Below the pieces are notes generated by a model. The model worked only from the letters and a program-made list of their open reading frames with translations, searched no databases and had not been told where the DNA came from. From an uncultured Mediterraneibacter sp. (GTDB lineage: Bacteria; Bacillota; Clostridia; Lachnospirales; Lachnospiraceae), in NCBI RefSeq assembly GCF_944377805.1, contig NZ_CALWFZ010000001.1:62001-126000 (forward strand): DNA of 64,000 nucleotides, in the 5' to 3' direction. The position numbers and the translations under genes are program-made. Positions 397 to 63,162 of the stretch are shown piece after piece. Numbering within the stretch: the first letter of the stretch is position 1; the number at the start of each line of letters is the position of its first letter.

Positions 397-1239
397 TTAT
401 ATCACCTCCGATTTGTGGCGTGTCACATGACAGTTGATATTAACCGCGCAGGGCATTCCCGCGATATGAGTTGGCAGTGTCTCGATATTAAGGCCGATAG
501 CTGTCGTCTTTCCGCCAAAACCCTGAGGTCCGATACCCAGCTCATTGATCTTTTCCAGCATTTCCTTCTCAAGATCTGCGTAGAACGGATCCGGATTGGA
601 GGAATCGAGCGGTCTCATGAGCGCTTTTTTGGCAAGAAGCGCACACTTGTCAAATGTTCCTCCGATACCCACGCCTACTACCATAGGCGGACATGGATTG
701 GGGCCTGCCGTCTCCACTACTTCAATAATAAAGTCCTTGATACCCTGAAGTCCTGCAGACGGTTTGAACATGCGGATCTGACTCATATTCTCGCTTCCAA
801 ACCCTTTTGGTCCCACTGTGACTTTAATCTTATCACCCGGCACGATCTCCGTATAGAGCATGGCCGGTGTGTTATCCCCAGTGTTACCGCGGCGCACCGG
901 ATCTTTTACAACTGACTTGCGCAGATAACCTTTATCATACCCTCTGCGAACCCCCTCGTCCACAGCCTCACTCAGGTCTCCTCCCACAAGACGCACATCC
1001 TGTCCGATCTCAAGGAACACGCAGGCCATTCCTGTGTCCTGACAGATCGGCACATTCTCGCTGTCAGCAATCTCAAAGTTTTCGATAATATTATCCAGAA
1101 CGCCCTGGGCAATCTCTCCGTCCTCACAGGCACGGCAGTCACGGATTGCGCATTTTACGTCTCCCGGAAGATGATTGTTGGCATCGATGCAGAGTCTCTC
1201 GATCACATCGGTGAGTGTACTTACATTTATTTCACGCAT
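397..1239 (-). CDS. Fumarate hydratase class I, alpha subunit
   Basis: This 280-residue protein is the alpha (N-terminal-type) subunit of the oxygen-sensitive [4Fe-4S] fumarase. Family hallmarks visible are [29 protein letters not shown] and [18 protein letters not shown], which carry the cluster cysteines. The start at 1239 (MREINVSTL) is chosen because AGGAAAGGAG lies at a good distance; an in-frame start at 1269 lacks such a site. It follows the AspT-like carrier by 114 nt and precedes the beta subunit with no gap. In context it would dehydrate malate to fumarate for the flavoprotein encoded at 2526-4127. The cytoplasm is the expected location. Confidence 0.95.
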
Positions 1240-1353
1240 GGAAATCAACTCCTTTCCTGATTGTACCATTGTTTTTGTTCAGCCATACACAGAGCCGTTC
1301 TACAAAGCATACGAGGTTGCTTTCTACTCCGCCCCATGTACGGCCGGACTTTT

Positions 1354-2511
1354 TTATAAAAATATTCCGATAAACTGGCAGCCCAGCACCACAAATACGA
1401 GGGCTACCGGATAAGTTGCCGCATAAGCGGAGGCCACATCGTCTGTACCTGTCACGCGAATCAGTGTTCCGAGAGCCGGAGTACTTGTCATTCCGCCACA
1501 GATAGAGCCAAGTGTGTTGAACAGGCTCAGCTTCATCAGCTTCACGGCTACAAAATATCCGATGAGCATCGGAATCAGTGTGATCAGCGCTCCGTACACA
1601 AACAGGACGAGCCCCTGCTCTTTAAGGATCTCAATAAACCCTGCGCCTGCTTCTACTCCCGCGCCGATGAGGAACAGCGCCAGCCCAAACTCACGCAGGC
1701 ATTCCAAAACAGATTTCTCTACATGGAAACTAATCTTTCCTGCATGGCCGAAATGTCCCAGGATAAGCCCAGCAATCAGCGGGCCTCCCGATGTTCCCAG
1801 TGAGAACTCCGCTCCGCCCGGAAGCGGAATAACGATTTTTGCCAGAATGATTCCCAGCGCGATCGCAAGCGCAAATGCGAAGAATCCCATCTCATCCACA
1901 ATGAAAAGTTTCTCTTTCTTCTTCAGCGCATCGTCGCCTACATTCTGAGCCGCCTCAAATTTCGCTCTCTCTGCCGCCATATCTGTCTTTAAAAATTTCG
2001 GAACAAGCTGTACAAAAAGCACAACCCCCACAACGCCAAAAGGATAAGCGATACCATATCCTACAGACGCATTGGCCGATCCCGTCGCGTCAATGGCCGC
2101 CGCAAGGCCCGGCGTACTTGTAAGCGCTCCGGACATCATACCAACGCTGATGTCAGACGGAACACCTGCGATCTCAATGATCCCAACTGTAGTCAGCGCG
2201 CCCGCCGCGATAATGATCAGTCCCAAAAGGATATATGATTTTGCGTTAATCTTAAAGTTGCGGAAAAACTTCGGCCCCGCGATAAAACCAACAGACGTCA
2301 CGAAACAGATCAGTCCCAGTTCACGCACAAGATCGGGCACCTCAAAACCGAAATGTCCGAACACAAGGGCGACAAGCAGTACGCCTGCCGTCCCCAGTTC
2401 CACTCCCCGGATCTTAATGCTTCCTACCAGATAGCCGACGAAAGCGACCAGGAATACGACCATCAGCGTATTGCCAAGCACACTCTCCTGAAACCAATTT
2501 ACTAAAAACAT
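1354..2511 (-). CDS. AspT/YidE-family anion exchanger, probably a C4-dicarboxylate carrier
   Basis: This 385-residue polytopic membrane protein has about ten hydrophobic segments in two halves. Each half carries the duplicated AspT-family signature: GALTSTPGLAAA near residue 129 and GGMTSTPALGTL near residue 340. The classical family members (aspartate:alanine exchanger AspT, YidE, YbjL) are about 540-560 residues and carry two RCK/TrkA-C domains between the halves. Here only a short charged linker of roughly 40 residues replaces them. It sits between the fumarate-reductase-type gene and fumarase, so succinate, fumarate or malate exchange is a reasonable inference. The substrate cannot be read from the sequence. 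Confidence 0.82.
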   Translation of the reverse strand: MFLVNWFQESVLGNTLMVVFLVAFVGYLVGSIKIRGVELGTAGVLLVALVFGHFGFEVPDLVRELGLICFVTSVGFIAGPKFFRNFKINAKSYILLGLIIIAAGALTTVGIIEIAGVPSDISVGMMSGALTSTPGLAAAIDATGSANASVGYGIAYPFGVVGVVLFVQLVPKFLKTDMAAERAKFEAAQNVGDDALKKKEKLFIVDEMGFFAFALAIALGIILAKIVIPLPGGAEFSLGTSGGPLIAGLILGHFGHAGKISFHVEKSVLECLREFGLALFLIGAGVEAGAGFIEILKEQGLVLFVYGALITLIPMLIGYFVAVKLMKLSLFNTLGSICGGMTSTPALGTLIRVTGTDDVASAYAATYPVALVFVVLGCQFIGIFL

Positions 2512-2525
2512 GTTCTCTCCCTTTC

Positions 2526-4127
2526 CTATCTCTCATGTCTTGCGTACTTCGGAAGAAGGAGCGGGGATACGTCGCCTGTGTCGATTCCTGCCACTTTTAA
2601 TTCCTCAGCATACGCCTGTATGTGATCCAGATTCATCGTTCCAAGCTCAACGTTCTTAGCTTTCGCCGCCGCGGCTTTTCCGGCATTGCGCCCGAATACG
2701 ATGATATCCAGAAGCGAGTTGCCCATCAGACGGTTTCTTCCGTGGATTCCACCGACAGCCTCACCTGCCACAAGCAGGTTGTTGATAACTTTTGTAAATC
2801 CGTCTCCTCCGATTTCAAGACCGCCGTTCTGATAATGAAGGGTCGGATAAATCAGAATCGGAAGTTTTCTCATATCAATATCATAGTTCATATACATGCG
2901 GAGCATAGCGGGAATACGTTTTTCAATCGTTCCCGGTCCTCCAAGTTCCTCAATCATCGGAGTATCAAGCCATACGCCGCTTCCAAGAGGAGTCGTTACG
3001 CCTTTTCCGCGGGCCGTACACTCACGAATGATCGATGCCGCCGCCACGTCGCGCGTCTCCAGAGGATGCATAAACGCCTCGCCGTCCACATTGACAAGCT
3101 GAGCGCCTACTGAACGCACTTTCTCCGTCACAAGAGCGCCAAAAATCTGAGACGGGAACGCGACTCCTGTCGGATGATACTGGATCGTATCCTGATACAG
3201 AAGCGGTGCCCCCAGGCGGTAACCGAGGATCAGTCCGTCCGCCGTAGCGCCGTAGTGGTTTGAAGTCGGAAATCCCTGATAGTGCATACGGCCCGCTCCG
3301 CCTGTTGCAATGATCACGGTCTTTGCCTTTGCCACAAGATAGTCTTCTGTCTCGAGATTCTGAAGCACAGCTCCCGCTACCTGTCCTCTGTCATCCTTAA
3401 TCAGCTCTACCGCCACCGTAAACTCGGCAACCGGGATCTGCCGATTTAATACTTCATCGCGAAGCGTACGCATAATCTCTGCTCCGGAGTAATCCTTGCA
3501 GGCATGCATTCTTTTTCTTGAAGTACCGCCGCCGTGTGTGGTAATCATTCTTCCATCTTTGTCCTTATCGAACATGACCCCAAGTTCATTGAGCCATTTG
3601 ATCGCATCCGGAGCTTCCATAACAAGACGTTTTAAAAGTTCCGGTCTCGCGGCAAAATGTCCGCCGCCGAACGCGTCCAGATAGTGCTGTACCGGAGAGT
3701 CATTCTCTTTATCTGCAGCCTGGATGCCGCCCTCTGCCATCATCGTATTAGCGTCACCGATACGAAGTTTTGTAGCGATCATTACATTTGCGCCCGCTTC
3801 GTGAGCCTCAATGGCTGCTGACGCGCCTGCGCCGCCGCCGCCGATCACAAGCACATCCACATCATAATCTACCTTGTTAATATCAACCCTGTCTGCAAGC
3901 AGACGGCTGTTGGAGTGGAGAAGATTCACCAGCTCCTTCGGCGCTTTCTGTCCTTTATTCGGTCCTATTTTAATCTCTTCAAATGCCTCTTCCCTGTAAT
4001 CAGGATGGAACTCTTTAAGAAGGGCATCTTTTTCCTCCGCAGTCATACGTCTTGGTTCCGTGCCAAGACGCTCTGCTCTGGTGGCCTCCACTTTTTTCAC
4101 GGATTCCATCATTTCCGGTGTAAACAT
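2526..4127 (-). CDS. Soluble fumarate reductase-type flavoprotein subunit (FrdA/TfrA-like)
   Basis: This is a 533-residue FAD protein of the succinate dehydrogenase/fumarate reductase family. After an unusual N-terminal extension of about 85 residues comes the dinucleotide fold VIGGGGAGASAA (residues 94-105). The substrate and proton-transfer residues of fumarate reductases can be aligned: QYHPTG (H318), TEKVR (E335, R338), ETRD (R359), LHYQNGG (H431) and NRLMGNS (R466). The histidine that binds FAD covalently in membrane Frd is Asn127 here (NTMMAEGG), so FAD should be non-covalent, as in soluble relatives. No membrane anchor gene is nearby. The 2Fe-2S/4Fe-4S partner lies 12 nt upstream. The start has AAGGAGG at good spacing. 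L-aspartate oxidase is unlikely because of the iron-sulfur partner. Confidence 0.88.
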   Translation of the reverse strand: MFTPEMMESVKKVEATRAERLGTEPRRMTAEEKDALLKEFHPDYREEAFEEIKIGPNKGQKAPKELVNLLHSNSRLLADRVDINKVDYDVDVLVIGGGGAGASAAIEAHEAGANVMIATKLRIGDANTMMAEGGIQAADKENDSPVQHYLDAFGGGHFAARPELLKRLVMEAPDAIKWLNELGVMFDKDKDGRMITTHGGGTSRKRMHACKDYSGAEIMRTLRDEVLNRQIPVAEFTVAVELIKDDRGQVAGAVLQNLETEDYLVAKAKTVIIATGGAGRMHYQGFPTSNHYGATADGLILGYRLGAPLLYQDTIQYHPTGVAFPSQIFGALVTEKVRSVGAQLVNVDGEAFMHPLETRDVAAASIIRECTARGKGVTTPLGSGVWLDTPMIEELGGPGTIEKRIPAMLRMYMNYDIDMRKLPILIYPTLHYQNGGLEIGGDGFTKVINNLLVAGEAVGGIHGRNRLMGNSLLDIIVFGRNAGKAAAAKAKNVELGTMNLDHIQAYAEELKVAGIDTGDVSPLLLPKYARHER

Positions 4128-4139
4128 GATCTTCCCTCC

Positions 4140-4814
4140 TTATTTCTCAATCTCTCTGTTGTTGTAAAGCTCCTGCATCTGAGTGATCGGCTTCTCCATG
4201 ATCTGCTCGATCAGTTCGTCATACTGACCGCTGTGGATTTCTTCCACGCGGTTTGTCAGATGTTCTGATTCAGGCGCAATATATTTTCCTGTCAGGCGTC
4301 TTGCAAGAACTCCTACCATCGGGTGGGATATTTCAGCCGGACATCTCACAGAACAGCAGCCGCATCCGATACAGTCAAAGGACTCTTCCGCACATTTCTC
4401 GAACTCTCCGCGCTGTGCGTAGGCGATATACTGCATAACATTTAAATCCTGGGTACATGCCTTTGTGCAGGCGTTACATCCGATACAGCTGTAGATCTCC
4501 GGATACAGCTCCATCATGATCTTCTGTTCCGGACGGATCTCGTCCATGTCATATGTTCTCTTATCTGTCGGGAAGAACGGGATGCTTGCCACATACATGC
4601 CATCCTCTACCTGTGTCTGACAGGCAAGGCATGTCTTTAATTCATTCTTGCCTTTGATCCTGTAGATCGTTGCGCAGGCGCCGCAGAAGCCATGACGGCA
4701 TCCGCATCCTCTTTTCAGTGTATAACCCGCATATTCCATAGCTGTCATGATTGTCAGCTCTGAGGGAACACTGTATTTCTTACCGAAAAAATATACATTT
4801 ACCATCTTTTCCAT
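4140..4814 (-). CDS. Iron-sulfur subunit of fumarate reductase (FrdB/TfrB N-terminal-like)
   Basis: This 224-residue electron-transfer protein has a ferredoxin-type 2Fe-2S domain (C39, C44, C47, then C62/C65) followed by two cysteine clusters for [4Fe-4S] centres (C110-C113-C116-C120 and C148-C151-C154-C158). The layout matches the iron-sulfur subunits of succinate dehydrogenase and fumarate reductase. The methanogen thiol:fumarate reductase subunit TfrB carries an additional HdrB-like CCG region that is absent here; a separate HdrB lies in the same operon. It should hand electrons to the flavoprotein encoded 12 nt downstream. The start has AAAGGAAG ten bases upstream. Confidence 0.88.
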   Translation of the reverse strand: MEKMVNVYFFGKKYSVPSELTIMTAMEYAGYTLKRGCGCRHGFCGACATIYRIKGKNELKTCLACQTQVEDGMYVASIPFFPTDKRTYDMDEIRPEQKIMMELYPEIYSCIGCNACTKACTQDLNVMQYIAYAQRGEFEKCAEESFDCIGCGCCSVRCPAEISHPMVGVLARRLTGKYIAPESEHLTNRVEEIHSGQYDELIEQIMEKPITQMQELYNNREIEK

Positions 4815-4831
4815 GATATTTCTTCCTTTCC

Positions 4832-5686
4832 CTAGTATTCATTCGGCATCTCATCGACTTCATCGCACCGAAATACCGGACCGTCTTTACATACATATTT
4901 GGAACCAATGTTACATCTGCCGCATTTGCCGATCCCGCATTTCATGCGGAGCTCTAATGTCGTATATACCTGGTCTCTGGAAAATCCCAGCTCCTCAAGT
5001 CCGGCCAGGGTAAACTTAATCATGATCGGCGGACCGCAGACAAGCGCGGTCTTATTTACATCAAAGCCCAGCTCTTTTACATAATTGGGTACGAATCCCA
5101 CATGGCCGTCCCATCCTTCCTGCTCACGGTCAATGGTCAGATGAACATGTACGTCCGGCGCGTTCATCCACACTTCCTGGATCTCTTTTAACTGAACCAG
5201 GTCGTCCGCAGAGCGGGATCCGTATACAATATCTACTGTACCGTAGTCTTCACGCTTATCGAGGACATAGTTGATAACAGAACGAAGGGGCGCAAGACCG
5301 ATACCTCCGGCGATAAACAGGAGATCTTTTCCTTTTAACACATCTTCCACCGGAAAATGATTGCCGTAAGGTCCCCGGACTGTAATCTCATCTCCCACTT
5401 CCAGGCCGTGCAGAAAGTCTGTGAGCATTCCGCACTTCTTAATACTGAACTCCTGATATTCCTTATTCGTCGGAGAGGAAGTGATAGAGAACATTCCCTC
5501 GCTGATTCCCGGCGCGCAGAGCATCGCGCACTGCCCAGGCATATGCTCGAACAGCTTGCCGCCTTCCGGAGCATTGACGCGGAATGTCTTCACGTCAGGC
5601 GTCTCCTCACGAATATCAGTGATCACGCCCACCTTCGGAATCAGCGTATCCAGCGTATAGTTCTTGTGACATGTGCATTCACTCAT
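4832..5686 (-). CDS. flxA: FAD/NAD(P)H-binding electron-input subunit (FlxA-like)
   Basis: This is a 284-residue ferredoxin-reductase-type protein. An FAD-binding beta-barrel with the flavin motif FSITSSPT is followed by the nucleotide-binding domain starting at FIAGGIGLAPLRS, and a C-terminal 2Fe-2S site CGIGKCGRC...YVC, as in dihydroorotate dehydrogenase PyrK and anaerobic sulfite reductase AsrB. In the Flx-Hdr complexes known from sulfate reducers this subunit oxidises NAD(P)H. Its start codon overlaps the stop of the upstream flxB-like gene by one base (TAATG), with GGGAGG upstream. Taken alone it could be called an AsrB homologue; the hdr genes in the same run favour FlxA. Confidence 0.85.
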   Translation of the reverse strand: MSECTCHKNYTLDTLIPKVGVITDIREETPDVKTFRVNAPEGGKLFEHMPGQCAMLCAPGISEGMFSITSSPTNKEYQEFSIKKCGMLTDFLHGLEVGDEITVRGPYGNHFPVEDVLKGKDLLFIAGGIGLAPLRSVINYVLDKREDYGTVDIVYGSRSADDLVQLKEIQEVWMNAPDVHVHLTIDREQEGWDGHVGFVPNYVKELGFDVNKTALVCGPPIMIKFTLAGLEELGFSRDQVYTTLELRMKCGIGKCGRCNIGSKYVCKDGPVFRCDEVDEMPNEY

Positions 5687-6726
5687 TACTGCTCACCTCC
5701 CTGTTTCTGAAACGCTTTCACTACTTTTACGATATTTAAAGCGGACGGACATTTCTCCACACATCTGCCGCATCCAACGCAGGAATACATGCCGTCATTA
5801 TTTGCCGGGAAGTACACCAGCTTATGCATGAATCTCTGCCGGAATCTCTCTTTTTGAGTAGTCCGGTTATTGCCGTGCGCCATCATCGTAAAATCAGAGT
5901 ACATACAGGAATCCCAGCAGCGGTATCTCTTCACGCCGTTCTTTCCGGCGTCATAGTCCTTAATGTCATAGCACTGACAGGTCGGACATACAAAAGTACA
6001 TGTGCCGCATGCCAGACAGGGCTTGTACAGTTCGTCCCAGAGCGGATCCTCAAACTTCTCCATCAGAACATCACCGTTCCATCCTTCAAGGGAGAGGTTA
6101 GAATACGGAAGCTGCTCTATGATACTGTGAATCGCCTCTTTTTCCTGCTCTACAGCAGCGTCGGCGCCGGAGTCTTCTGTCAGGAGACCGGAAAGTGATT
6201 CTGTGAGCGCCTCGCCTTTCTCTGTGAGCGGCTTCCAGCAAAGATCATCCCCGATCAGCCATGCTTCCACATCGGCCCCTGGATTGGCAGCGTCCACTCC
6301 GAAAGCCTTGCAAAAACACGTCTCCTCAGGTTCATGGCATGCAAGGGCCACAATCGTTCCGTGATCCCTGCGGGCAGCATAGAACGTGTCAATAGGATCC
6401 ACGAGGAATACTTTGTCCAGCACTTCCACGCCTCTTACATCACACGCTCTCATTCCGAACACAACAAAATCCTGTTCCTGTAATGCCTCCGGTTCAACAC
6501 TTAACTTCTTTCCGTCTCTGACGCAGGTATAGAGGTTTTCGCTCTGCGGGAAGAAGGCGTCTTTCGGAGATTTTACTGTTTTTAACGTATCAATATCGAC
6601 TTCTGCGTCTTTCGTCCACACGCCGAAATTAACCTGTCCTTCATTTCTTACCGGAAGATATAATTCCTGCTCTGCGGCAATCTTCTGAAATAATGCCGAC
6701 AGATTTTCTTTTGCGATCTTATACAT
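5686..6726 (-). CDS. flxB: 4Fe-4S dicluster protein (FlxB/AsrA-like)
   Basis: This 346-residue cytoplasmic protein has a long N-terminal region with the conserved RACDVRGVEVLDKVF segment and a C-terminal pair of ferredoxin motifs, CLACGTCTFVCPTC and CVGCGRCVEKCP. This architecture is shared by anaerobic sulfite reductase subunit A and FlxB. In the Flx-Hdr complex it is thought to wire FlxA to the remaining clusters. It lies four bases after the stop of the flxC-like gene and overlaps the flxA-like start. No sulfite reductase (AsrC) gene is present, which argues against an Asr operon. Confidence 0.82.
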   Translation of the reverse strand: MYKIAKENLSALFQKIAAEQELYLPVRNEGQVNFGVWTKDAEVDIDTLKTVKSPKDAFFPQSENLYTCVRDGKKLSVEPEALQEQDFVVFGMRACDVRGVEVLDKVFLVDPIDTFYAARRDHGTIVALACHEPEETCFCKAFGVDAANPGADVEAWLIGDDLCWKPLTEKGEALTESLSGLLTEDSGADAAVEQEKEAIHSIIEQLPYSNLSLEGWNGDVLMEKFEDPLWDELYKPCLACGTCTFVCPTCQCYDIKDYDAGKNGVKRYRCWDSCMYSDFTMMAHGNNRTTQKERFRQRFMHKLVYFPANNDGMYSCVGCGRCVEKCPSALNIVKVVKAFQKQGGEQ

Positions 6727-6729
6727 ACA

Positions 6730-7704
6730 TTATCCCCTTTCTGCCACAATTCCCGGCTCAGCGTCATCAAGGTCATAGTTGGTAAGCGGAGTTCTGGGCT
6801 CCAGATCAGCCCCTGCCTGATATTCTCCGTAAAGTTCATCAATATCCTTGATAAACTTGCGGTTAAACAGATGCAGGCGGATTCCCTGAGGACAGACTCT
6901 GCTGCACTCTCCACAGTCCGTACATCTTCCAGCGACATGGAAAGCACGGATAATATGGAACATCTTCTCCTCAAAAGAATCCGCATTTGCCTTCTGCGCG
7001 CTGTCAAACTTGTTGCTGTCAAACACGCACTTGCGGCAGCTGCATGCCGGACACACATTACGGCAGGCATTACAGCGGATACATTTGCTCAGTTCCTTCT
7101 GGAAGAACGCGAATTTTTCCTCCGGGCTCATTGCCTCGATCTTTTCCACTTCAGCAAAGCGATCCCCGTCTTTCGTCTCTTTCGAGTCTCCGATTGTCTC
7201 GTCAAAGATCACATGATCTTTTCCTTTGCACACATGGCATCTCTCCAGCATGGCATCGGCATAGGAGCATGTCTTTTCCCCGTAGATAGTCTGAATGGTC
7301 AGCGTATCCGCCTCATCCCCCATTTCAGCCCCGGAGATACTTTTGATACCTTTAATACCCATTGCCCTGATCTTCTCGATGTCCAGCTTTCCTTTGCAGC
7401 CGACGCCGATGATATATGCCTTCTCGCGGTCAATGCGGTGCTCTTTTAAAAGTTCCTGAAAGCTGTATGTATCACATGGCTTTAAACATACGAGCGTCTT
7501 TCCTTCCAGTTTGGAAGCCTCGATCATATATTTGCTTAAGTTCGCCCCGCAGAATCCGTTATAGACAAAATCCGCAAAGTCCTCTTCTTTTTCAAAGTAA
7601 GCCGGCTCCGGATTGTAAGGCAGGTCCCCGGCTTTCCATCCGAGCACTCTTGCCACGGTTCCGTCAGCCAGAAGCTCTTTTGCGCGGTTAATTAATTCCT
7701 GCAT
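6730..7704 (-). CDS. flxC: 4Fe-4S protein with F420-hydrogenase-beta-like N-terminus (FlxC-like)
   Basis: This 324-residue protein has an N-terminal half resembling coenzyme F420-reducing hydrogenase beta-type proteins (LVCLKPCDTYSFQELL, YIIGVGCKGKLD). Two ferredoxin motifs follow, CIRCNACRNVCPACSC and CTDCGECSRVCPQG. That combination and its position between FlxD- and FlxB-like genes fit FlxC of the Flx-Hdr complex. The start overlaps the end of the flxD-like gene by 13 bases, and the ribosome site GGAGG lies inside that gene. The precise electron path through this subunit is unknown. Confidence 0.78.
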   Translation of the reverse strand: MQELINRAKELLADGTVARVLGWKAGDLPYNPEPAYFEKEEDFADFVYNGFCGANLSKYMIEASKLEGKTLVCLKPCDTYSFQELLKEHRIDREKAYIIGVGCKGKLDIEKIRAMGIKGIKSISGAEMGDEADTLTIQTIYGEKTCSYADAMLERCHVCKGKDHVIFDETIGDSKETKDGDRFAEVEKIEAMSPEEKFAFFQKELSKCIRCNACRNVCPACSCRKCVFDSNKFDSAQKANADSFEEKMFHIIRAFHVAGRCTDCGECSRVCPQGIRLHLFNRKFIKDIDELYGEYQAGADLEPRTPLTNYDLDDAEPGIVAERG

Positions 7705-8135
7705 CTTAAATCCTCCAATCTTACGTTTTTGCCAAGCGAAGTAACCTTGTCCACAAACTCATGCATTGTCTCTGAGAATTTCGCTCCCTCAGCAGCCGAT
7801 ACCCACTCTACCCGGGTACGTCCGTTTTCTACTCCGATGTAGTCAAGCATGGAGAAGAGAAGTGTCATACGCCGCCTCGCATAATAGTTTCCTGAAGTAT
7901 AATGGCAGTCGCCCGGATGGCATCCGCACATGATAACCCCATCCGCGCCCTTTTCAAATGCTCTTAAAATGAACATCGGATTGACGCGGCAGGAACAGGG
8001 AACACGGATGATCTTGACATCAGCCGAATAGGACATACGGCTGCTCCCCGCCAGATCCGCTCCGGCGTAGCTGCACCAGTTACAGCAGAACGCCACGATT
8101 TTTGGTCTGAATTCTTCGTTCTTTTCTATCGACAT
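7692..8135 (-). CDS. flxD: Hydrogenase iron-sulfur subunit family protein (MvhD/FlxD)
   Basis: This 147-residue MvhD-family protein has the conserved cysteine pattern CCNWCSYAGAD near the N-terminus, then PCSCRV and CGCHPGDCHY, which hold a 2Fe-2S cluster. In methanogens MvhD bridges a hydrogenase and HdrA, and in sulfate reducers FlxD bridges Flx and HdrA. Here it directly follows hdrA, overlapping it by ten bases. The start at 8135 (MSIEKNEEF) has GGAGGT nine bases upstream. A longer in-frame start at 8234 would lie deep inside hdrA and has no equivalent in the family. No hydrogenase genes are present. Confidence 0.9.
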   Translation of the reverse strand: MSIEKNEEFRPKIVAFCCNWCSYAGADLAGSSRMSYSADVKIIRVPCSCRVNPMFILRAFEKGADGVIMCGCHPGDCHYTSGNYYARRRMTLLFSMLDYIGVENGRTRVEWVSAAEGAKFSETMHEFVDKVTSLGKNVRLEDLRCRN

Positions 8136-10114
8136 ATCGCATCTACCTCCGCTAGAATCTGTCTGTTCGAGAAGCCCTGCAGGTCCATTGCTCCGGACGG
8201 ACACGTTACGGTACATGCTCCGCATCCCTGGCAAAGCGCGTCATTGACAACCGCAAGGCGCCTTGTCTCACGGATTCCGTGATCATTTACCTCTTTGTCC
8301 TCATAGGTGATCGCTCCGTACGGACATACGTTCGCACACTGGGAACATCCGTTACAGAGAAGTTCGTCTGACTGTGCCGTACACGGATTGGTCAGCAGTT
8401 TGTCTTTTGCAAGAAGCCCGATGGCTTTTACAGCTGCGGCTCCCGCCTGAGAAACCGTCTCTGGAATATCTTTCGGTCCCTGGCATACGCCTGAGAGGAA
8501 GATACCTGCTGTAGGTGATTCTACCGGACGAAGTTTTGCGTGGGCCTCTGTCAGGAAGTTGTTCGTGTCAATACTTGCCGTCAGCATAGTGGCGATCTTT
8601 CTCACACCCGGATTCGGCTCAATAGCTGCCGCGAGGACGACCATATCCGCCTCTTTTAAGATCTGTTTATTATCGAGCAGATCTGCTCCCTGTACGAGAA
8701 GTTTTCCATTTGGCTGCGGAATGACTTTTCCGACCTGTCCTTTAATATAGTTTACACCGTAATCTTCCACTGCCCGGCGGTAGAACTCATCGAAGTTCTT
8801 GCCCGGCGTTCTTACATCAATATAAAATACGGTGACATTCACATCCGGATACTTGTCGCGGATAAGCATTGCGTGTTTTGCCGTGTACATACAGCAAACT
8901 TTAGAGCAGTAACTTTTGCCTCTGTCGTCCGCACAGCGGCTTCCCACGCACTGAATGAATACCATCTCTTTTGGCGCTTTCCCGTCGGAGAGGCGCTCCA
9001 GATGGCCGCCTGTCGGGCCTGCCGCATTCATGACACGCTCCAGTTCAAGAGATGTGATAACGTCCTTGCTCTGGCCGTAAGCATACTCGTCATATTTGTC
9101 CAGCTTGATCATGTCAAAGCCTGTGGCCACAACAATCGCGCCGTATTTTTCTGTGATAATCTCATCGGTCTGATCATAGTCAACAGCTCCTGCCTGACAC
9201 ACCTTTGAACAGATACCGCACTTTCCTGTCTTGAACTTAATACAGGCATCCCGGTCAATAACCGGAACATTGGGAACCGCCTGTGCAAACGGCGTATAAA
9301 TAGCGCTTCTGTTGTCCAGCCCGCGGTTGAACTCGCTGGGAGTCTTTTTGCTCGGGCACTTCTCCTGACACACGCCGCAGCCTGTACACTTATTCATATC
9401 CACGCTTCTTGCCTTCTTGCGGATCTCAACTGTGAAATCTCCCACGAAACCGGATACATTCTCCACTTCGCTGTATGTATAGATATTAATATTCGGATGC
9501 GCGTTTACTTCTCCCATCTTCGGGGTCAGAATACACGATGAACAGTCCAGTGTCGGGAACGTCTTGTCAAGCTGAGACATCCTTCCTCCGATACTCGGTG
9601 TCTTCTCGACGATGTCCACCGGATACCCTGCCTCCGCAATATCAAGGGCCGTCTGGATACCTGCGATGCCTCCTCCGATCACAAGCGCTCTCTTTGTAAC
9701 ACGGCTCTCTCCCGGCTGGAGCGGCGCGTCAAGGTTTACTTTAGCGATGGCCGCGCGCATCAGAATCACAGCTTTTTCCGTGGCCTCATCTATATCTTTA
9801 TGTATCCAGGAGCAGTGCTCGCGGATGTTGGCGATCTCCACCATATACGGGTTTAATCCGGCCTTCTCCGCCGCGTTTCTGAATGTCGTCTCGTGCATAC
9901 GCGGAGAACATGAACAAACGACAAGCCCGGTCAGCTGTTTTTCCTTAATCGCCTTATGTATCAGTTCCTGTCCGGCCTCAGAACACATATACTGATAGTC
10001 TTCCGCATGAACGACTCCCGGCTCGTGAAGCGCCATCTGGGCAACTTTGCTTACGTCTACCGTTGCCGCGATATTACTGCCGCAATGACAGACAAATACT
10101 CCTATCCTCTGCAC
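8126..10114 (-). CDS. hdrA: Heterodisulfide reductase subunit A-like flavoprotein (electron-bifurcating HdrA)
   Basis: This 662-residue protein is the flavin-carrying core of Hdr-type complexes. It shows the N-terminal VFVCHCGSNI segment, the FAD-binding motif VIGGGIAGIQTA (residues 145-156), a middle cysteine-rich insertion (CTGCGVCQEKCP and CGICSKVC), and two C-terminal ferredoxin motifs (CNGCSQCANVCP and CQGCGACTVTCP). The established role of HdrA is flavin-based electron bifurcation, splitting pairs from one donor to a high- and a low-potential acceptor. Translation begins at GTG (10112-10114) behind AGGAGGTGATAACAG. It follows hdrC by six bases and overlaps flxD. Confidence 0.94.
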   Translation of the reverse strand: MQRIGVFVCHCGSNIAATVDVSKVAQMALHEPGVVHAEDYQYMCSEAGQELIHKAIKEKQLTGLVVCSCSPRMHETTFRNAAEKAGLNPYMVEIANIREHCSWIHKDIDEATEKAVILMRAAIAKVNLDAPLQPGESRVTKRALVIGGGIAGIQTALDIAEAGYPVDIVEKTPSIGGRMSQLDKTFPTLDCSSCILTPKMGEVNAHPNINIYTYSEVENVSGFVGDFTVEIRKKARSVDMNKCTGCGVCQEKCPSKKTPSEFNRGLDNRSAIYTPFAQAVPNVPVIDRDACIKFKTGKCGICSKVCQAGAVDYDQTDEIITEKYGAIVVATGFDMIKLDKYDEYAYGQSKDVITSLELERVMNAAGPTGGHLERLSDGKAPKEMVFIQCVGSRCADDRGKSYCSKVCCMYTAKHAMLIRDKYPDVNVTVFYIDVRTPGKNFDEFYRRAVEDYGVNYIKGQVGKVIPQPNGKLLVQGADLLDNKQILKEADMVVLAAAIEPNPGVRKIATMLTASIDTNNFLTEAHAKLRPVESPTAGIFLSGVCQGPKDIPETVSQAGAAAVKAIGLLAKDKLLTNPCTAQSDELLCNGCSQCANVCPYGAITYEDKEVNDHGIRETRRLAVVNDALCQGCGACTVTCPSGAMDLQGFSNRQILAEVDAICR

Positions 10115-10120
10115 CTGTTA

Positions 10121-10510
10121 TCACCTCCTGTATCTTCTGAGTGCACTGACGAGCAGCTGCTGTGGTGTATCGGGATCAATAAGTTCCGGTATCTCATCCG
10201 CCAGCAGATAGTTCTGCCCTCTCTCCCGTACAACGATCTGTCTTGCGGCATCAATCAGCCTGCCCGGCTTCACATCACGCGGGCATCTCTCCACACACGC
10301 AAAACAGGAAAGGCATTTCCAGAGAGATTTTGAATTGACCAGTGACTCAATATCTTCATTAATCACATAGGAGACAAACTGATGCGGTCTGATATCCATT
10401 TCATTGTAGGACGGGCAGGAAGCGGAACATTTGCCGCACTTCATGCATTTCAGCGGATTTACGCCGCTGATCTCTTTGATCATCTCCGCGCGTTTCTGTT
10501 CTGTTCTCAC
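10121..10510 (-). CDS. hdrC: Heterodisulfide reductase subunit C-like ferredoxin
   Basis: This 129-residue protein has two [4Fe-4S] motifs, CMKCGKCSASCP and CLSCFACVERCP, with the spacing of HdrC. HdrC carries electrons from HdrA to HdrB. The GTG start overlaps the TGA of hdrB by four bases (GTGA), with GGAGGTGG upstream. Many ferredoxin domains look alike, but the position between hdrB and hdrA makes the assignment firm. Confidence 0.92.
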   Translation of the reverse strand: MRTEQKRAEMIKEISGVNPLKCMKCGKCSASCPSYNEMDIRPHQFVSYVINEDIESLVNSKSLWKCLSCFACVERCPRDVKPGRLIDAARQIVVRERGQNYLLADEIPELIDPDTPQQLLVSALRRYRR

Positions 10511-11301
10511 TGCTCATCCACCTCCTTCAGCCCCAGTGCCTCTGCCAGCAGTTCCGTAAAATAATATACCGGCAGATTTTCACCGTTATTCTTGTTCAGA
10601 TTATACATACACAGCGGACAGGCGGTAATCAGCATATCTGCGCCGAAACCTGCCGCGCTCTCCTCGATCTTCCGGCACATCTCTTTTGACATGTTCTCTT
10701 CTTTCAGAGATATGTAACCGCCGCAGCATTCGTTGCGGTACGGATAGATCACAGGCTCTGCTCCTATAGCTCGGATGAAATCCTCCATGATCGAGGGATT
10801 CTCAGGATCGTCAAACGCCATCAGCCTGCCCGGACGGAGAAGAAGGCATCCGTAGTACGCGCCTATCTTCTTTCCTTTAAGAGGGTTGGTAACTTTTTTC
10901 TTTAATTCGTCAAATCCCACGCGGTCGCGGAGTATCTCAAGATAGTGAAGAACTGTCGTCTCTCCCTCATAAGGCTCGTCAAGCTTCATATAGTTGTTCG
11001 CTCTTGTGCGGATGTCATCGACATTTTTCATGTCGTCATTTACCCGTTTAATCACATGATGGCAGGCAGAACAGACTGTTACCAGATCCTGCCCTTTCTC
11101 CTTGGCGTCGTTAAGCGCACGGACAGAGGCCAGCTTTGTGGCGATCTCATCGCTTCCCAGCGGATAGACACCGCCGCAGCACTGCCATTCACTGATCTCC
11201 TCAAGCGTAAAGCCCAAAGCTTCGGCACATGTTCTGGCATAATGATCCAGGTCCACAGCTTTGTTCTTAAGAGTACAGCCGGGGAAATAGCTGTATTTCA
11301 T
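10507..11301 (-). CDS. hdrB: Heterodisulfide reductase subunit B-like protein with two CCG domains
   Basis: This 264-residue protein has two cysteine-rich CCG domains. The first is PGC (C9), CCGG (C41-C42) and CSAC (C77, C80); the second is YYGC, ECCGG and CPLC in the C-terminal half. In methanogens these bind the two non-cubane clusters that reduce the CoM-CoB heterodisulfide. In sulfate reducers the acceptor is thought to be DsrC. Neither cofactor nor dsrC is expected or seen here, so the physiological acceptor is open. All motif cysteines look intact. The gene lies 86 nt after the malate dehydrogenase gene with AAGGAGG before its ATG. Confidence 0.92.
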   Translation of the reverse strand: MKYSYFPGCTLKNKAVDLDHYARTCAEALGFTLEEISEWQCCGGVYPLGSDEIATKLASVRALNDAKEKGQDLVTVCSACHHVIKRVNDDMKNVDDIRTRANNYMKLDEPYEGETTVLHYLEILRDRVGFDELKKKVTNPLKGKKIGAYYGCLLLRPGRLMAFDDPENPSIMEDFIRAIGAEPVIYPYRNECCGGYISLKEENMSKEMCRKIEESAAGFGADMLITACPLCMYNLNKNNGENLPVYYFTELLAEALGLKEVDEQ

Positions 11302-11323
11302 AGTATTACCTCCTTGTCAGTCA

Positions 11324-11383
11324 GGCGGAAGTCCGCCCTGTTACTTGATATACCCCTGCATTGTCAAATGAGGGGTATTTTTT
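11324..11383. repeat. Two inverted repeats in the mdh-hdrB gap
   Basis: The 86-base gap holds two potential hairpins: GGCGGA-AG-TCCGCC (11324-11337) and ATACCCCT / AGGGGTAT (11350-11357 and 11371-11378) followed by a T-run on the plus strand. Read in the direction of the flanking genes (minus), the T-run precedes the second hairpin, so neither is a canonical terminator for mdh. They could set relative expression of mdh and hdrB by RNA processing or attenuation; that is inference. Confidence 0.45.
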
Positions 11384-11387
11384 AAGC

Positions 11388-12335
11388 TTAGATATTCAGT
11401 TCGGCAATAACTTCTTTCAGCTTATTCGCGCTGTTCTGAAGTCTTGCAACCTCTTCATCCGTAAGTTTCAGCGGCACCTTGCCCTGAACACCATTTGGTC
11501 CGACTAAAGTGAGGACGCTTAAGCAGACGTCATCAATTCCGTATTCTCCGTGCATCATAGAGGACACAGTAGCCACTGAATCAGATGCTGCCAGAACAAG
11601 ACTGCAAAGTTCGCAAACCGCAATAGATACAGCGTAGAATGTAGCGCCCTTCTTTGAGATAACTTCTCCTCCTGATGTGTGCACATACTCTTCCATAGCC
11701 GGCTTGTCCAGCTCTTCAAGATCTACGCCAAGCTCCTTCATTGACTTATAGTAGTCGTCAATATTTACAGTGGCGATATTAGCTCCTGACCACGGAACAA
11801 AAGAGGAATCACCATGCTCGCCGTATACATACGCGTGAATATTCTTCTGTGCCACTTTAAAGTGTTCGGACAGTCCCGAGCGCAGACGCGCTGTGTCAAG
11901 AAGTGTTCCGGAACCAATGATCTGATTCTCCGGCAGACCGGAAACTTTTGTAAATACATAAGTCAGAATGTCAACCGGGTTGCTTACGATGATGTAAATT
12001 GCGTTCGGAGCCACTTTTACAATCTCCGGAGCAATAGACTTAATAATGTTGACATTTGTCTGCGCAAGCTCGATTCTTGTCTGACCCGGTTTGCGGGCGA
12101 TACCTGATGTGATAATAACAATATCAGAATCTTTGGCATCTTCATAATCTCCTGCAATGACAGAGATGGGAGTTCTAAAGCAGGTCCCCTGCTTAATATC
12201 CATGACTTCTCCCTCTACCTTGTCCTTGTTGATATCGATCATGACAAGCTCTGATGCGATATCCTCGTAAGAAAGTTTGTACGCAATTGTTGCTCCGACA
12301 CTTCCTGCGCCGATGATAGTGATTTTACTGCTCAT
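11388..12335 (-). CDS. mdh: Malate dehydrogenase (LDH/MDH family, Arg specificity residue)
   Basis: This 315-residue NAD-dependent 2-hydroxyacid dehydrogenase has the nucleotide motif IIGAGSVGATIA, the catalytic GEHGDSS histidine and the DTARLR arginine. The residue that discriminates substrates in the LDH/MDH superfamily (position 102 in classical numbering, in the loop xxKPGxTR) is Arg81 (GIARKPGQTR). Arg selects oxaloacetate/malate, whereas lactate dehydrogenases carry Gln, as does the paralogue at 32472-33416. The position at the head of a fumarase and fumarate reductase run supports malate dehydrogenase. A purely automatic call could read lactate dehydrogenase. The start is behind GGAAGAGGA. 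Confidence 0.82.
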   Translation of the reverse strand: MSSKITIIGAGSVGATIAYKLSYEDIASELVMIDINKDKVEGEVMDIKQGTCFRTPISVIAGDYEDAKDSDIVIITSGIARKPGQTRIELAQTNVNIIKSIAPEIVKVAPNAIYIIVSNPVDILTYVFTKVSGLPENQIIGSGTLLDTARLRSGLSEHFKVAQKNIHAYVYGEHGDSSFVPWSGANIATVNIDDYYKSMKELGVDLEELDKPAMEEYVHTSGGEVISKKGATFYAVSIAVCELCSLVLAASDSVATVSSMMHGEYGIDDVCLSVLTLVGPNGVQGKVPLKLTDEEVARLQNSANKLKEVIAELNI

Positions 12336-12495: not shown

Positions 12496-12524
12496 ATCAT
12501 AGCACATTGTTAATAATTTGACAA
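12496..12524 (-). promoter_or_regulatory. Predicted sigma-A promoter of the mdh-hdr-flx-frd-fum run
   Basis: On the minus strand, TTGTCA (12519-12524) and TATGAT (12496-12501) are separated by 17 bases, close to the vegetative consensus. The leader to the mdh start is about 150 nt. The remainder of the 347-base gap to csoR contains only the csoR promoter; I saw no riboswitch. Confidence 0.65.
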
Positions 12525-12682: not shown

Positions 12683-12958
12683 ATGAAACAGTGTATGGAT
12701 TCTGACAATCTTCACCGTCGCTTAAAAAAAATCATCGGACAGGTACAGGCAATAGACCGGATGATCGATGAAGATATTCCCTGCGAGGATGTCCTATCGC
12801 AGATTAACGCGGCCAAGTCCGCCCTGCACAAAGTCGGACAGATTGTACTCGAGGGACACATTAATCACTGTGTCCGCGACGGAATCGAGCATGGCGATGT
12901 GGATCAGACTATAGCCAGCTTTACTAAAGCAGTTGAACGGTTTGCAAATATGAAATAG
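12683..12958 (+). CDS. csoR: CsoR-family metal-sensing repressor
   Basis: This 91-residue all-helical repressor of the CsoR/RcnR/FrmR family (DUF156) retains the Cys-His-Cys triad C34, H59 and C63 that binds Cu(I) in CsoR. Metal or thiol modification releases it from DNA. It is followed by its own terminator and then by a metal-transporting ATPase whose promoter contains CsoR-like operator sequence. AAGGAGG precedes the start. Copper is the best guess for the effector, but the same fold senses other metals and persulfides. Confidence 0.88.
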   Translation: MKQCMDSDNLHRRLKKIIGQVQAIDRMIDEDIPCEDVLSQINAAKSALHKVGQIVLEGHINHCVRDGIEHGDVDQTIASFTKAVERFANMK

Positions 12959-12964
12959 CAGAAT

Positions 12965-13010
12965 ACACAGAAGGCTGAAAACTTACTTTCTCTTCTGTGT
13001 GTTTTTCTTT
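12965..13010 (+). terminator. Intrinsic terminator of csoR
   Basis: ACACAGAAG and CTTCTGTGT pair across an 18-base loop, followed by GTTTTTCTTT. Confidence 0.75.
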
Positions 13011-13017
13011 ATGCGTC

Positions 13018-13072
13018 TTGACAACCTATACCCCTATAGGTATATAATATACCTATACTTATATGGGTATGA
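13018..13072 (+). promoter_or_regulatory. Metal ATPase promoter with overlapping CsoR-like operators
   Basis: TTGACA (13018-13023) is followed after 17-19 bases by TATATAAT (13041-13048). The spacer contains ATACCCCTATAGGTAT, with the perfect core CCTATAGG (13033-13040). A second half-site pair (ATACCTATACTTATATGGGTA region) lies downstream. Such GC-cored, AT-flanked inverted repeats are typical CsoR targets, so the upstream repressor probably controls this promoter. Confidence 0.65.
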
Positions 13073-13098
13073 TATTATGTTGAAGGAGACGTATTATT

Positions 13099-15576: not shown

Positions 15577-16737
15577 TTATTTCTCGTAAGCTTCAATTCC
15601 TGCTTTCAGCCTTTTTAATCCGTCTTCCAGACGCTCTCTCGGACACGCGAGATTCATTCGCAGAAATCCCCTGCCATTGTGGTATTCGCTGCCGTCTGAT
15701 ATATACAGCCCGGTATGCTTTCTGAGAAAACCCGACAGTTCTCCGGAGTCCTCCGTCACCCTGCGGCAGTCAATCCAAAGCAGATAAGTGGCTGTTCCGC
15801 GTATTGCCGTAATACTACCGATCTCTGCGTCAATATATGTTTCTGCTCTCTTCCGGTTTTCCCACAAATACTGGTTTAAGGCGTCAAGCCATTCGCCACC
15901 CTCTCTGAATGCGGCGACAGGGGCAATCGCGGCAAATACATTCGGTTCTGCCACTTCATCTGTATTCAGGCCGCGGTTTACCCTATGCCGGAGCGTTTTA
16001 TCCGGCACTACCACGGCGGAGGTCTGTATCCCGGCTATGTTAAACGTCTTCGTCGGCGCAATACAAGTGATGCTGTTCTTTTTACAGTTTTCAGATACGG
16101 AAGCAAAGGGAACATACTTTTCTCCTGGTTTTACCAGGTCGCAGTGAATCTCATCTGAGAGTACAAGCACATGATGTCTGACACACAGATCACCGATCCG
16201 TTCCAAAGTTTTTTTGTCCCAGATCTTTCCCACCGGATTCTGAGGGTTGCACAGGAGCAAAAGAGCTGCCTGTGGATCCGACAGTTTTCTCTCCAGATCG
16301 TCAAAATCAATCTCATAGGTACCGTCTTTTAAGGCCAGCCTGCTCTCCAGAACGTTCCTCCCATTATTAAGGATCGAGTTGAAGAAAATATTATAGACGG
16401 GTGTCATAACCACCACTTTCTCAGCCACAGTAGTCATCTTTCTGACGATACTGGAAATGGCCGGAACGACTCCCGTGCAGAAGATAAGCCATTCTCTTTC
16501 TATCTCAAAATGGTGCCGGTTGCTCCACCATGACTGATACGCCTCATACCACTCATCTGTCAGAAGCGTGTAGCCGTATATTCCCTGAGCCGCGCGCAGA
16601 GCTATAGCCTCTGTCACTGCCGGAGCAGTCCGGAAATCCATGTCCGCCACCCACATGGGAAGTTCGCCGTCCGGAACATCCCACTTTACAGAACCGGTAT
16701 TTTTCCGGTCAATCAGTTCATCAAAATTGTAATTCAT
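15577..16737 (-). CDS. MalY/PatB-family PLP aminotransferase (putative C-S lyase)
   Basis: This 386-residue fold-type I PLP enzyme shows the family start with NTGSVKWD and LPMWVADMDF, the aspartate motif LSDEIHCDL and the PLP-binding lysine in APTKTFNIAG. MalY/PatB proteins are usually cystathionine beta-lyases or related C-S lyases that release homocysteine or sulfide. The start at 16737 (MNYNFDEL) follows GGGAG and lies 20 bases after the end of the DUF3737 gene, with which it is probably co-transcribed. The exact substrate is unknown. Confidence 0.9.
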   Translation of the reverse strand: MNYNFDELIDRKNTGSVKWDVPDGELPMWVADMDFRTAPAVTEAIALRAAQGIYGYTLLTDEWYEAYQSWWSNRHHFEIEREWLIFCTGVVPAISSIVRKMTTVAEKVVVMTPVYNIFFNSILNNGRNVLESRLALKDGTYEIDFDDLERKLSDPQAALLLLCNPQNPVGKIWDKKTLERIGDLCVRHHVLVLSDEIHCDLVKPGEKYVPFASVSENCKKNSITCIAPTKTFNIAGIQTSAVVVPDKTLRHRVNRGLNTDEVAEPNVFAAIAPVAAFREGGEWLDALNQYLWENRKRAETYIDAEIGSITAIRGTATYLLWIDCRRVTEDSGELSGFLRKHTGLYISDGSEYHNGRGFLRMNLACPRERLEDGLKRLKAGIEAYEK

Positions 16738-16757
16738 ACTGCCGTACTCCCTTTCCT

Positions 16758-61260: not shown

Positions 61261-63162
<1,902 letters not shown>

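Follow-up and report, generated by a model that had tools for sequence, protein, structure and literature searches.

Gene organization

A window of 64,000 bases from contig NZ_CALWFZ010000001.1 of an uncultured Mediterraneibacter sp. (positions 62,001 to 126,000) was analyzed, and this report concerns its first 12.3 kb; the draft genome to which it belongs comprises 2.28 Mb and is 92.6% complete. This part of the window carries a gene run in which the subunits of a complete Flx-Hdr complex are combined with a fumarate reductase, a fumarase and a malate dehydrogenase, and judging from its gene content the operon probably saves energy during quinone-free succinate formation. All genes lie on the minus strand in the transcriptional order mdh-hdrB-hdrC-hdrA-flxD-flxC-flxB-flxA-frdB-frdA-AspT-type carrier-fumA-fumB, and 10 of the 12 junctions overlap or are shorter than 20 bases.

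The run starts with mdh (11388-12335), coding for an NAD-dependent malate dehydrogenase, which NCBIfam matches place in the lactate dehydrogenase (LDH)-like family and which is named from an Arg at the specificity position. It is separated by 86 bases, one of the two larger gaps, from hdrB (10507-11301), which codes for a CCG-type subunit with ten Cys residues for two noncubane clusters and overlaps by 4 bases with hdrC (10121-10510), the gene for a ferredoxin-like subunit with two [4Fe-4S] clusters (open reading frame (ORF) list, Pfam). After 6 bases follows hdrA (8126-10114) for the FAD- and Fe-S-containing subunit, which by homology should harbor the bifurcation site. The next gene, flxD (7692-8135), belongs to the MvhD/FlpD family (PF02662, 180 bits). 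Its ORF was listed as 8234-7692, and inspection indicated the ATG at 8135 behind a GGAGG motif as the likely start instead, resulting in a protein of about 147 amino acids and a 10-base overlap with hdrA. The flxC gene (6730-7704; FrhB/FdhB-type with a 4Fe-4S dicluster; ORF list, Pfam) overlaps flxD by 13 bases and is followed after 3 bases by flxB (5686-6726; AsrA/HydB-like Fe-S protein; Pfam, NCBIfam), which shares one base with flxA (4832-5686), coding for an AsrB/HydG-like FAD/NAD(P)H oxidoreductase (PF00175, PF10418, PF00970) and presumed entry site of NADH. The seven subunits of Flx-Hdr are thus all present and contiguous (ORFs, Pfam, NCBIfam).

The second part of the operon begins 17 bases behind flxA with an frdB-like gene (4140-4814), whose product of 224 amino acids contains one [2Fe-2S] and two [4Fe-4S] motifs (Pfam, NCBIfam, motif Cys residues). 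It is followed after 12 bases by frdA (2526-4127) for the fumarate reductase flavoprotein (PF00890, 222 bits; conserved residues, fold search) and after another 14 bases by the gene for an AspT/YidE-type carrier of 385 amino acids (1354-2511; PF06826), a presumed dicarboxylate (succinate) exporter. Behind the second larger gap of 84 bases are fumA (397-1269; PF05681, 389 bits) and, without any spacing, fumB (1-396), coding for the alpha and beta subunits of a class I fumarase; fumB is cut by the end of the window and adjoins fumA as in the relatives. The genes named in the initial annotation of this DNA were therefore all found at their places on one strand and as tightly packed as described there, and none of these genes was recognized as coding for an FrdC/FrdD-type membrane anchor, which it had reported as missing.

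Conservation among close relatives

Using the FrdB-like protein as marker, we scanned the genomes of named species and obtained at least 466 relatives. From these, the best 80 were retained, which biases the set toward close relatives. The closest named relatives among the matches listed were Mediterraneibacter-like Lachnospiraceae. The order hdrB-hdrC-hdrA-flxD-flxC-flxB-flxA was present directly before frdB in all 64 of these best 80 relatives with at least 7 kb of upstream sequence, which excludes that the linkage is confined to this genome, an outcome that the initial annotation had named as refuting its proposal. The 16 relatives with less than 7 kb upstream were consistent as far as their sequences reach, those with less than 200 bases (L037, L074, L087) being uninformative. 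Downstream, frdA directly follows frdB in 79 of the 80 relatives (the contig of L088 ends), and fumAB were found in 65 of the 68 relatives with at least 4.5 kb of downstream sequence (not in L101, L107 and L109). The outer parts are more variable, with mdh preceding hdrB in 53 of 64 relatives and an AspT-type carrier gene separating frdA from fumA in no more than 24 of 68. Carriers of the operon include Blautia luti (L096), B. schinkii (L099), B. wexlerae (L080) and B. glucerasea (L050). In B. luti MSK.16.34, the genes are arranged as hdrBCA-flxDCBA-frdBA-fumAB, and no mdh gene was found upstream of the operon in either B. luti or B. schinkii.

A second sample consisted of the whole genomes of 61 relatives, 17 of which contained FrdB at a threshold of 360 bits, while full or nearly full HdrA proteins were present in 18 and partial ones in 2. 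Presence of FrdB and HdrA did not agree in five genomes (G003, G004, G015, G018, G026), but these were ruled out as counter-examples to the linkage because their contigs end inside the operon. Among the 16 genomes with both proteins, the genes shared a contig in 12, at a distance of about 3.3 kb, and were located on separate contigs in four (G006, G012, G031, G035). The conservation of the gene order exceeds chance, and the arrangement is widespread and invariant in gut Clostridia, which is added by this analysis. One genome with 4% contamination (G036) contained two frdBA copies (G036:C22 and G036:C38), whose FrdB proteins are 91% and 90% identical to that of the window.

Predicted route of carbon and electrons

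According to the genes present, phosphoenolpyruvate carboxykinase (PEPCK), which is encoded elsewhere in the genome (673 bits), would supply oxaloacetate, and the malate dehydrogenase and class I fumarase of the operon would convert it to fumarate. FrdAB would then reduce fumarate to succinate, which may be exported via the AspT-type carrier. NADH would enter at FlxA, and the electrons would pass via FlxB, FlxC and FlxD to the FAD of HdrA to be split there. The low-potential branch would lead to ferredoxin and from reduced ferredoxin to Rnf, the second one via HdrC, HdrB and FrdB to FrdA and fumarate. HdrB would thereby correspond to the SdhE-like subunit (ten Cys, CCG) of E-type fumarate reductases and be connected directly, without a small thiol or DsrC in between. 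NADH as donor, the bifurcation, the contact between HdrB and FrdB and the succinate export are what we infer from the operon. We regard it as likely, if clearly short of certain, that Flx-Hdr bifurcates, that HdrB passes electrons directly to FrdB/FrdA and that ferredoxin takes the low-potential branch. The bifurcating reaction would be feasible at about -33 to -49 kJ/mol, as calculated from potentials of -320 mV for NADH, +33 mV for fumarate and -420 to -500 mV for ferredoxin.

The rest of the genome provides a candidate outlet for reduced ferredoxin, as rnfC scored above its cut-off (507.9 bits) and is followed by rnfD and an rnfG-like gene for an FMN_bind protein, where the contig ends and leaves the remaining rnf genes unseen. 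Five [FeFe]-hydrogenase-type matches were also recorded. DsrC (PF04358) was not found in the 92.6% complete draft genome, with E. coli as positive control, nor was a UbiA-family prenyltransferase (PF01040), for which all 14 control genomes were positive, or NadA, which was detected in 12 of the 14 controls. Because the genome is a draft, the absence of DsrC, UbiA and NadA from the organism is likely, but unproven. Within these limits, the results support two further statements of the initial annotation, namely that DsrC is lacking and, by the lack of a detectable UbiA, that succinate would be formed without quinones.

HdrA and HdrB

The HdrA protein matched the solved methanogen Heterodisulfide reductase subunit A 5odc_A end to end with 690 bits (residues 3-660), including the two C-terminal ferredoxin motifs, which supports the identity proposed for it initially, and no other HdrA match in the genome is full-length. 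The ten cluster Cys residues of HdrB align with those of the solved methanogen HdrB and were retained in 85 of 85 homologues. In NCBIfam, HdrB reached 141.0 bits with the HdrB model (cut-off 345) and practically the same score of 139.4 bits with the SdhE model (cut-off 500), both values lying below the cut-offs. FrdAB and HdrB together appear to resemble an E-type fumarate reductase, a likeness added by this analysis.

The noncubane clusters of HdrB are the disulfide-reducing site in methanogens, whose thiol:fumarate reductase Tfr runs on thiols. That both noncubane ligand sets are retained here would also fit a function in which HdrB reduces a soluble disulfide, either of a small thiol or of a thioredoxin-like protein, and the resulting thiol then reduces FrdB, as DsrC or coenzymes M and B do elsewhere. 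The best NCBIfam match of FrdA, which is TfrA from the thiol-driven methanogen enzyme, points in the same direction. Two results argue against such a shuttle: DsrC was not found in the draft genome, and FrdB gave no match in either Pfam or NCBIfam to a CCG domain, the thiol-oxidizing domain of TfrB. Moreover, no gene for a small thiol protein was recognized among the operon ORFs of at least 90 amino acids. We therefore consider a thiol shuttle unlikely and retain direct electron transfer from HdrB to FrdB as the preferred reading.

FrdA and FrdB

FrdA is the only protein of the genome that is matched across the whole FAD_binding_2 model. Its NCBIfam matches were led by TfrA with 322 bits (cut-off 718), with SdhA/FrdA reaching 264 bits and L-aspartate oxidase models up to 245.8 bits. 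About 88 residues precede the FAD domain, and Pfam gave no match to Succ_DH_flav_C. An AlphaFold model (predicted local distance difference test (pLDDT) 68.7, predicted template modelling score (pTM) 0.71) showed its best fold match to E. coli FrdA (1kf6, TM 0.58), which confirms only the FrdA/SdhA fold and nothing beyond. We compared the residues of 115 FrdA sequences, consisting of the one from the window, 77 of the 80 loci from close relatives and 37 of the 38 more distant loci described below. H318, E335, R338 and R359 were invariant, T334 was present in 114 sequences (Ser once), and H431, R466 and S471 were likewise present in 114, with one gap; the roles of these catalytic residues are presumably those known from E. 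coli FrdA.

The proximity of the L-aspartate oxidase scores to that of SdhA/FrdA raises the question whether the protein is a fumarate reductase at all or whether it, for example, oxidizes L-aspartate or reduces a different unsaturated acid, its neighborhood being coincidental. We rejected NadB as its identity because no NadA was found in the genome. A different substrate also fits poorly with the fumarase genes downstream in the close relatives (65 of 68) and with the malic enzyme or pyruvate carboxylase neighbors of other loci. In addition, extracts of B. luti contain fumarate reductase activity, which may stem from this protein, according to the accessible text of a recent study (PMC12773636). 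Taken together, a function unrelated to fumarate appears very improbable.

Alignment to SdhA revealed Asn127 at the position of the FAD-linking His in all 115 FrdA sequences, in which they differ from complex II. E. coli FrdA without this His retains fumarate reduction, but its succinate oxidation is abolished. The missing His makes FrdA look one-directional, working in fumarate reduction only. This disfavors a reverse-running operon oxidizing succinate with ferredoxin and NAD+ in a confurcating reaction, as in propionate oxidizers, for which it can be said that Hdr complexes are reversible in principle. The presence of PEPCK and Rnf genes also argues for the reductive direction, as does the succinate production reported for B. 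luti in the accessible text (PMC12773636), and we regard the reverse reaction as extremely improbable.

FrdB contains a [2Fe-2S] motif and two four-Cys [4Fe-4S] motifs, whose Cys residues were present in 119 of 119 homologues. Quinone-linked enzymes have one [4Fe-4S] and one [3Fe-4S] cluster instead, a further difference from complex II, with the cluster type of FrdB being deduced from the motif only. A sequence search of the PDB returned ferredoxin-type domains only (best match RnfC, 33.5 bits), so that the [2Fe-2S] half and the kinship with SdhB rest on weak Pfam and NCBIfam matches and on the motifs.

Malate or lactate dehydrogenase

The product of the first operon gene scored above the NCBIfam cut-offs for L-lactate dehydrogenase (350.9 vs. 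339 and 349.6 vs. 303.55 bits) and narrowly below that for malate dehydrogenase (280.3 vs. 283 bits). The LDH identity favored by these scores was set aside because of the substrate specificity position, which is occupied by Arg (GIARKPG) as in 51 of 53 operon homologues above 200 bits, the pattern remaining unmatched in the other two. By the Arg/Gln rule for this position, which we assume to apply here, mdh seems the better name. A paralogue of the same LDH/MDH family is encoded in the window at 32472-33416 (minus strand) and carries Gln at the respective position (GANQKPG; GANQKPGETR); unlike the Arg-type enzyme of the operon, it is probably a true L-lactate dehydrogenase.

Partners of FrdBA across the phylum

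A sample of 398 genomes from the phylum contained the FrdB family at E ≤ 1e-20 in 39 genomes including our own (26 of 267 genera), and the loci of the other 38 were examined. Pfam was used to name 20 selected neighboring genes, the others being assigned by BLAST to the window proteins or from a similar size and location. The frdA gene lies directly 3' of frdB in 37 of the 38 loci, the remaining one (L172) ending with its contig. Hdr genes adjoin frdBA in 21 of 38 loci and in several gene orders, with hdrB being seen in 19 and the contigs of the other two (L171 and L178) breaking off too soon. Flx-type genes together with hdrABC were found in five of these loci, four of them showing frdBA followed by hdrBCA and flx and one hdrCBA-flx followed by frdBA; flxB, flxC and flxD were present in all five and flxA in two, the other stretches ending before. 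HdrB was combined with flxD and two HdrA proteins, one of them a long fusion, in 11 loci, including L171 and L178, which break off in the long gene, and L150 with a still longer HdrA fusion and two hdrB genes. The latter locus codes for a protein of 1489 amino acids (L150 9122-13591, minus strand) with N-terminal Fer4_20 and Pyr_redox_2 domains (NfnB/GltD-like) and HdrA-like sequence, in the hdr cluster adjoining frdBA. A further five loci contain hdrBC without an adjacent hdrA in the stretch, of which L172 reaches only 1.7 kb beyond hdrC. These clusters, in which hdrBC directly adjoins frdBA, also speak against the thiol shuttle and, together with the SdhE likeness, favor a contact between HdrB and FrdB.

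The other loci showed a malic-enzyme-size protein (six loci, Pfam-confirmed in two), pyruvate carboxylase (three loci, one confirmed, two by size and place), FMN_bind and/or NapC-type cytochrome genes (three loci) or other or no recognizable partners (five loci) beside frdBA. In a quick tree of FrdBA with 50 rows, the label "Hdr-adjacent" changed at least three times by gains or losses. FrdBA is not tied to Flx-Hdr, but represents a reductase with several electron sources, for which Hdr subunits are the commonest neighbors in the sample.

Members of the same FrdBA family are located beside FMN_bind/ferredoxin proteins in L147 and L155 and beside NapC or c7-type cytochromes in L155 and L158, which suggests a membrane-fed version of FrdBA in these three. 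The most divergent clade (L156, L157, L159; FrdB 46-47%) has genes of the AbrB, PrpD or isocitrate dehydrogenase type beside it or nearby and may therefore act on a substrate other than fumarate, an observation that can be quoted in favor of another substrate for FrdA as well. Four HdrA matches read through one in-frame TGA (G311:C63, G335:C29, G140:C153, G093:C65), possibly coding for selenocysteine.

Comparison with known systems

The FlxABCD-HdrABC complex of sulfate reducers, reportedly described by Ramos et al. in 2015, has the same seven subunits; here, DsrC was not found and fumarate reductase genes follow instead. Methanogen TfrAB shares the FrdA homologue (best NCBIfam match, below cut-off), but there the CCG domain is part of the TfrB chain, an arrangement that is here split between FrdB and HdrB. 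Complex II differs in its FAD-linking His, its [3Fe-4S] motif and its dependence on a quinone pool, for which no UbiA was found here. All statements on the papers cited in the following refer to the accessible parts of their texts. In Wolinella SdhABE, SdhE has ten Cys residues and is related to heterodisulfide reductases, and SdhB contains a second [4Fe-4S] cluster (PMC2680327). This E-type enzyme, an 8-methylmenaquinol:fumarate reductase, shares with our system the flavoprotein, the Fe-S protein with a second [4Fe-4S] cluster and the ten-Cys HdrB-like partner, but is quinone-linked at the membrane, whereas HdrB belongs here to the Flx-Hdr set and UbiA was not found.

The closest precedent is the "succinate operon" of Pseudoclostridium thermosuccinogenes, which consists of genes for fumarate hydratase, Flx-Hdr, fumarate reductase and a hypothetical protein as potential succinate transporter (Koendjbiharie et al. 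2020, PMC7282089). Its authors assume, but do not demonstrate, that ferredoxin reduction is coupled to fumarate reduction, citing a preprint of 2019, and report about fourfold upregulation under CO2 limitation, which is not significant for all subunits (PMC7282089). The likeness extends to fumarase, the seven Flx-Hdr genes, fumarate reductase and the putative succinate transporter in one operon; as compared by the published description, the fumarase genes are located at the other end there (locus-tag order, CDQ83_RS03315-RS03365), whereas mdh comes first here. Moreover, flxABCD-hdrABC genes interspersed with tfrAB were described for gene clusters of the reductive tricarboxylic acid (rTCA) cycle in tubeworm symbionts and Thioflavicoccus mobilis, by a study of tubeworm symbionts from 2019 (PMC6315080) and another of 2024 (PMC11636981). 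Direct electron shuttling was suggested in both, the latter reporting a tfrAB expression pattern unlike that of the rest. By their description, these clusters are set apart by belonging to autotrophic Proteobacteria, by including korABCD and by containing tfrAB instead of frdBA.

The operon type and the bifurcation idea have thus already been published for P. thermosuccinogenes and the arrangement is not new, which refutes the remark of the initial annotation that no description was known. Its observation was confirmed, and its interpretation is partly supported: energy-conserving, bifurcating succinate formation remains plausible and was in part strengthened by the linkage, the HdrA match, the lack of detectable DsrC and UbiA, and rnfC, rnfD and the rnfG-like gene as an outlet for reduced ferredoxin. 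Among the literature matches listed, which leave most subscription journals outside coverage, there was no report of this operon in Blautia or Mediterraneibacter and no paper with a coupling test for it, and the accessible parts of PMC9044749, which reports CRISPRi in P. thermosuccinogenes, PMC6776011 and PMC8671834 contain nothing on coupling of fumarate reduction to Flx-Hdr. Likewise, no enzyme demonstration of fumarate as high-potential acceptor of flavin-based bifurcation was found among the matches listed, as far as the texts consulted were accessible.

Evaluation of the proposed coupling

Physiological data come from B. luti, whose extracts show methyl-viologen:fumarate reductase activities of 504-989 mU/mg, which makes succinate and transcribes frdAB highly (2026, PMC12773636); we read the operon in strain MSK.16.34, the activity being that of the strain used in the paper. 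The authors of that paper assume a simple NADH-dependent fumarate reductase in their model, and the accessible main text is without the words "Flx", "Hdr" or "heterodisulfide" (PMC12773636). Their model would agree with Flx-Hdr and FrdAB acting as an NADH:fumarate reductase that does not bifurcate and reduces no ferredoxin, as would the occurrence of FrdBA elsewhere without adjacent Hdr genes or in genomes without any HdrA. Yet HdrA is a full-length homologue of the solved HdrA including both C-terminal ferredoxin motifs, and a nine-subunit NADH enzyme without bifurcation would seem wasteful with Rnf present, so we judge this possibility to be quite unlikely.

Besides the B. luti model, a number of other points weigh against bifurcation coupled directly to fumarate reduction. 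The NCBIfam matches of HdrA, HdrB, FrdA and FrdB are all below the curated cut-offs, the specificity of FlxA for NADH is presumed from homology, and the AlphaFold model of FrdB, built with 38 close homologues, is too poor for assigning a fold or an interface (pLDDT 50.9, pTM 0.38). In the phylum sample, 17 of the 38 frdBA loci are without Hdr neighbors in the stretch read, hdrB occurring in none of them, and the three changes in the tree could be explained by two losses and a single gain. HdrA is not adjacent in 22 genomes, 18 of which contain it elsewhere, including all five with only hdrBC, where it possibly serves in trans and where the clusters are no proof of a contact between HdrB and FrdB. 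The other four (G131, G355, G439, G127) have no HdrA at E ≤ 1e-40, so FrdBA can use other donors. Finally, no biochemistry of fumarate-ferredoxin coupling was found in the accessible parts of the literature consulted.

Combining all results, we tentatively propose a wider model, about which we are slightly more doubtful than confident. FrdBA would represent a soluble, interchangeable end piece with HdrBC as adaptor, and HdrB would dock on FrdB as an SdhE-like donor. In gut Clostridia, this would result in a nine-subunit FlxABCD-HdrABC-FrdAB complex with fumarate as high-potential acceptor of the bifurcation, and elsewhere in the phylum FrdBA and HdrBC would be fed by HdrA fusions or other donors.

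Implications for succinate formation

Gut Clostridia such as the present one apparently produce succinate, one of the main metabolites in the gut, without a recognizable pathway to quinones. Should the proposed function hold, reduced ferredoxin would be gained with every succinate formed and could be converted by Rnf to an ion-motive force; the ATP balance published for B. luti on the basis of a simple NADH-dependent fumarate reductase would then be an underestimate. Since Blautia strains with the operon are in culture, the proposal of 2019-2020 can be tested directly outside P. thermosuccinogenes as well, and the changing partners of FrdBA hint at a general principle by which a terminal reductase can be plugged into bifurcating complexes. 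This analysis adds the spread and invariance of the operon in gut Clostridia, the apparent one-way FAD site, the E-type likeness and the partner swapping across the phylum.

Further features of the window

Upstream of mdh, a promoter-like site of the sigma-70-like type (TTGTCA-17-TATGAT; 12496-12524, minus strand) was recognized by consensus match only, the stretch containing 19 such sites compared to 14.8 expected by chance (standard deviation 3.8). An Rfam scan of the window yielded one tRNA and nothing else. Divergent from the operon, genes for a metal-sensitive repressor (PF02583) and a P-type ATPase are located at 12683-14973 (plus strand), and a second P-type ATPase is encoded at 25953-28052 (minus strand). 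Between these, the gene for a DUF3737 protein (16758-17636, minus strand) overlaps by a few bases with a class I/II aminotransferase gene (15577-16767).

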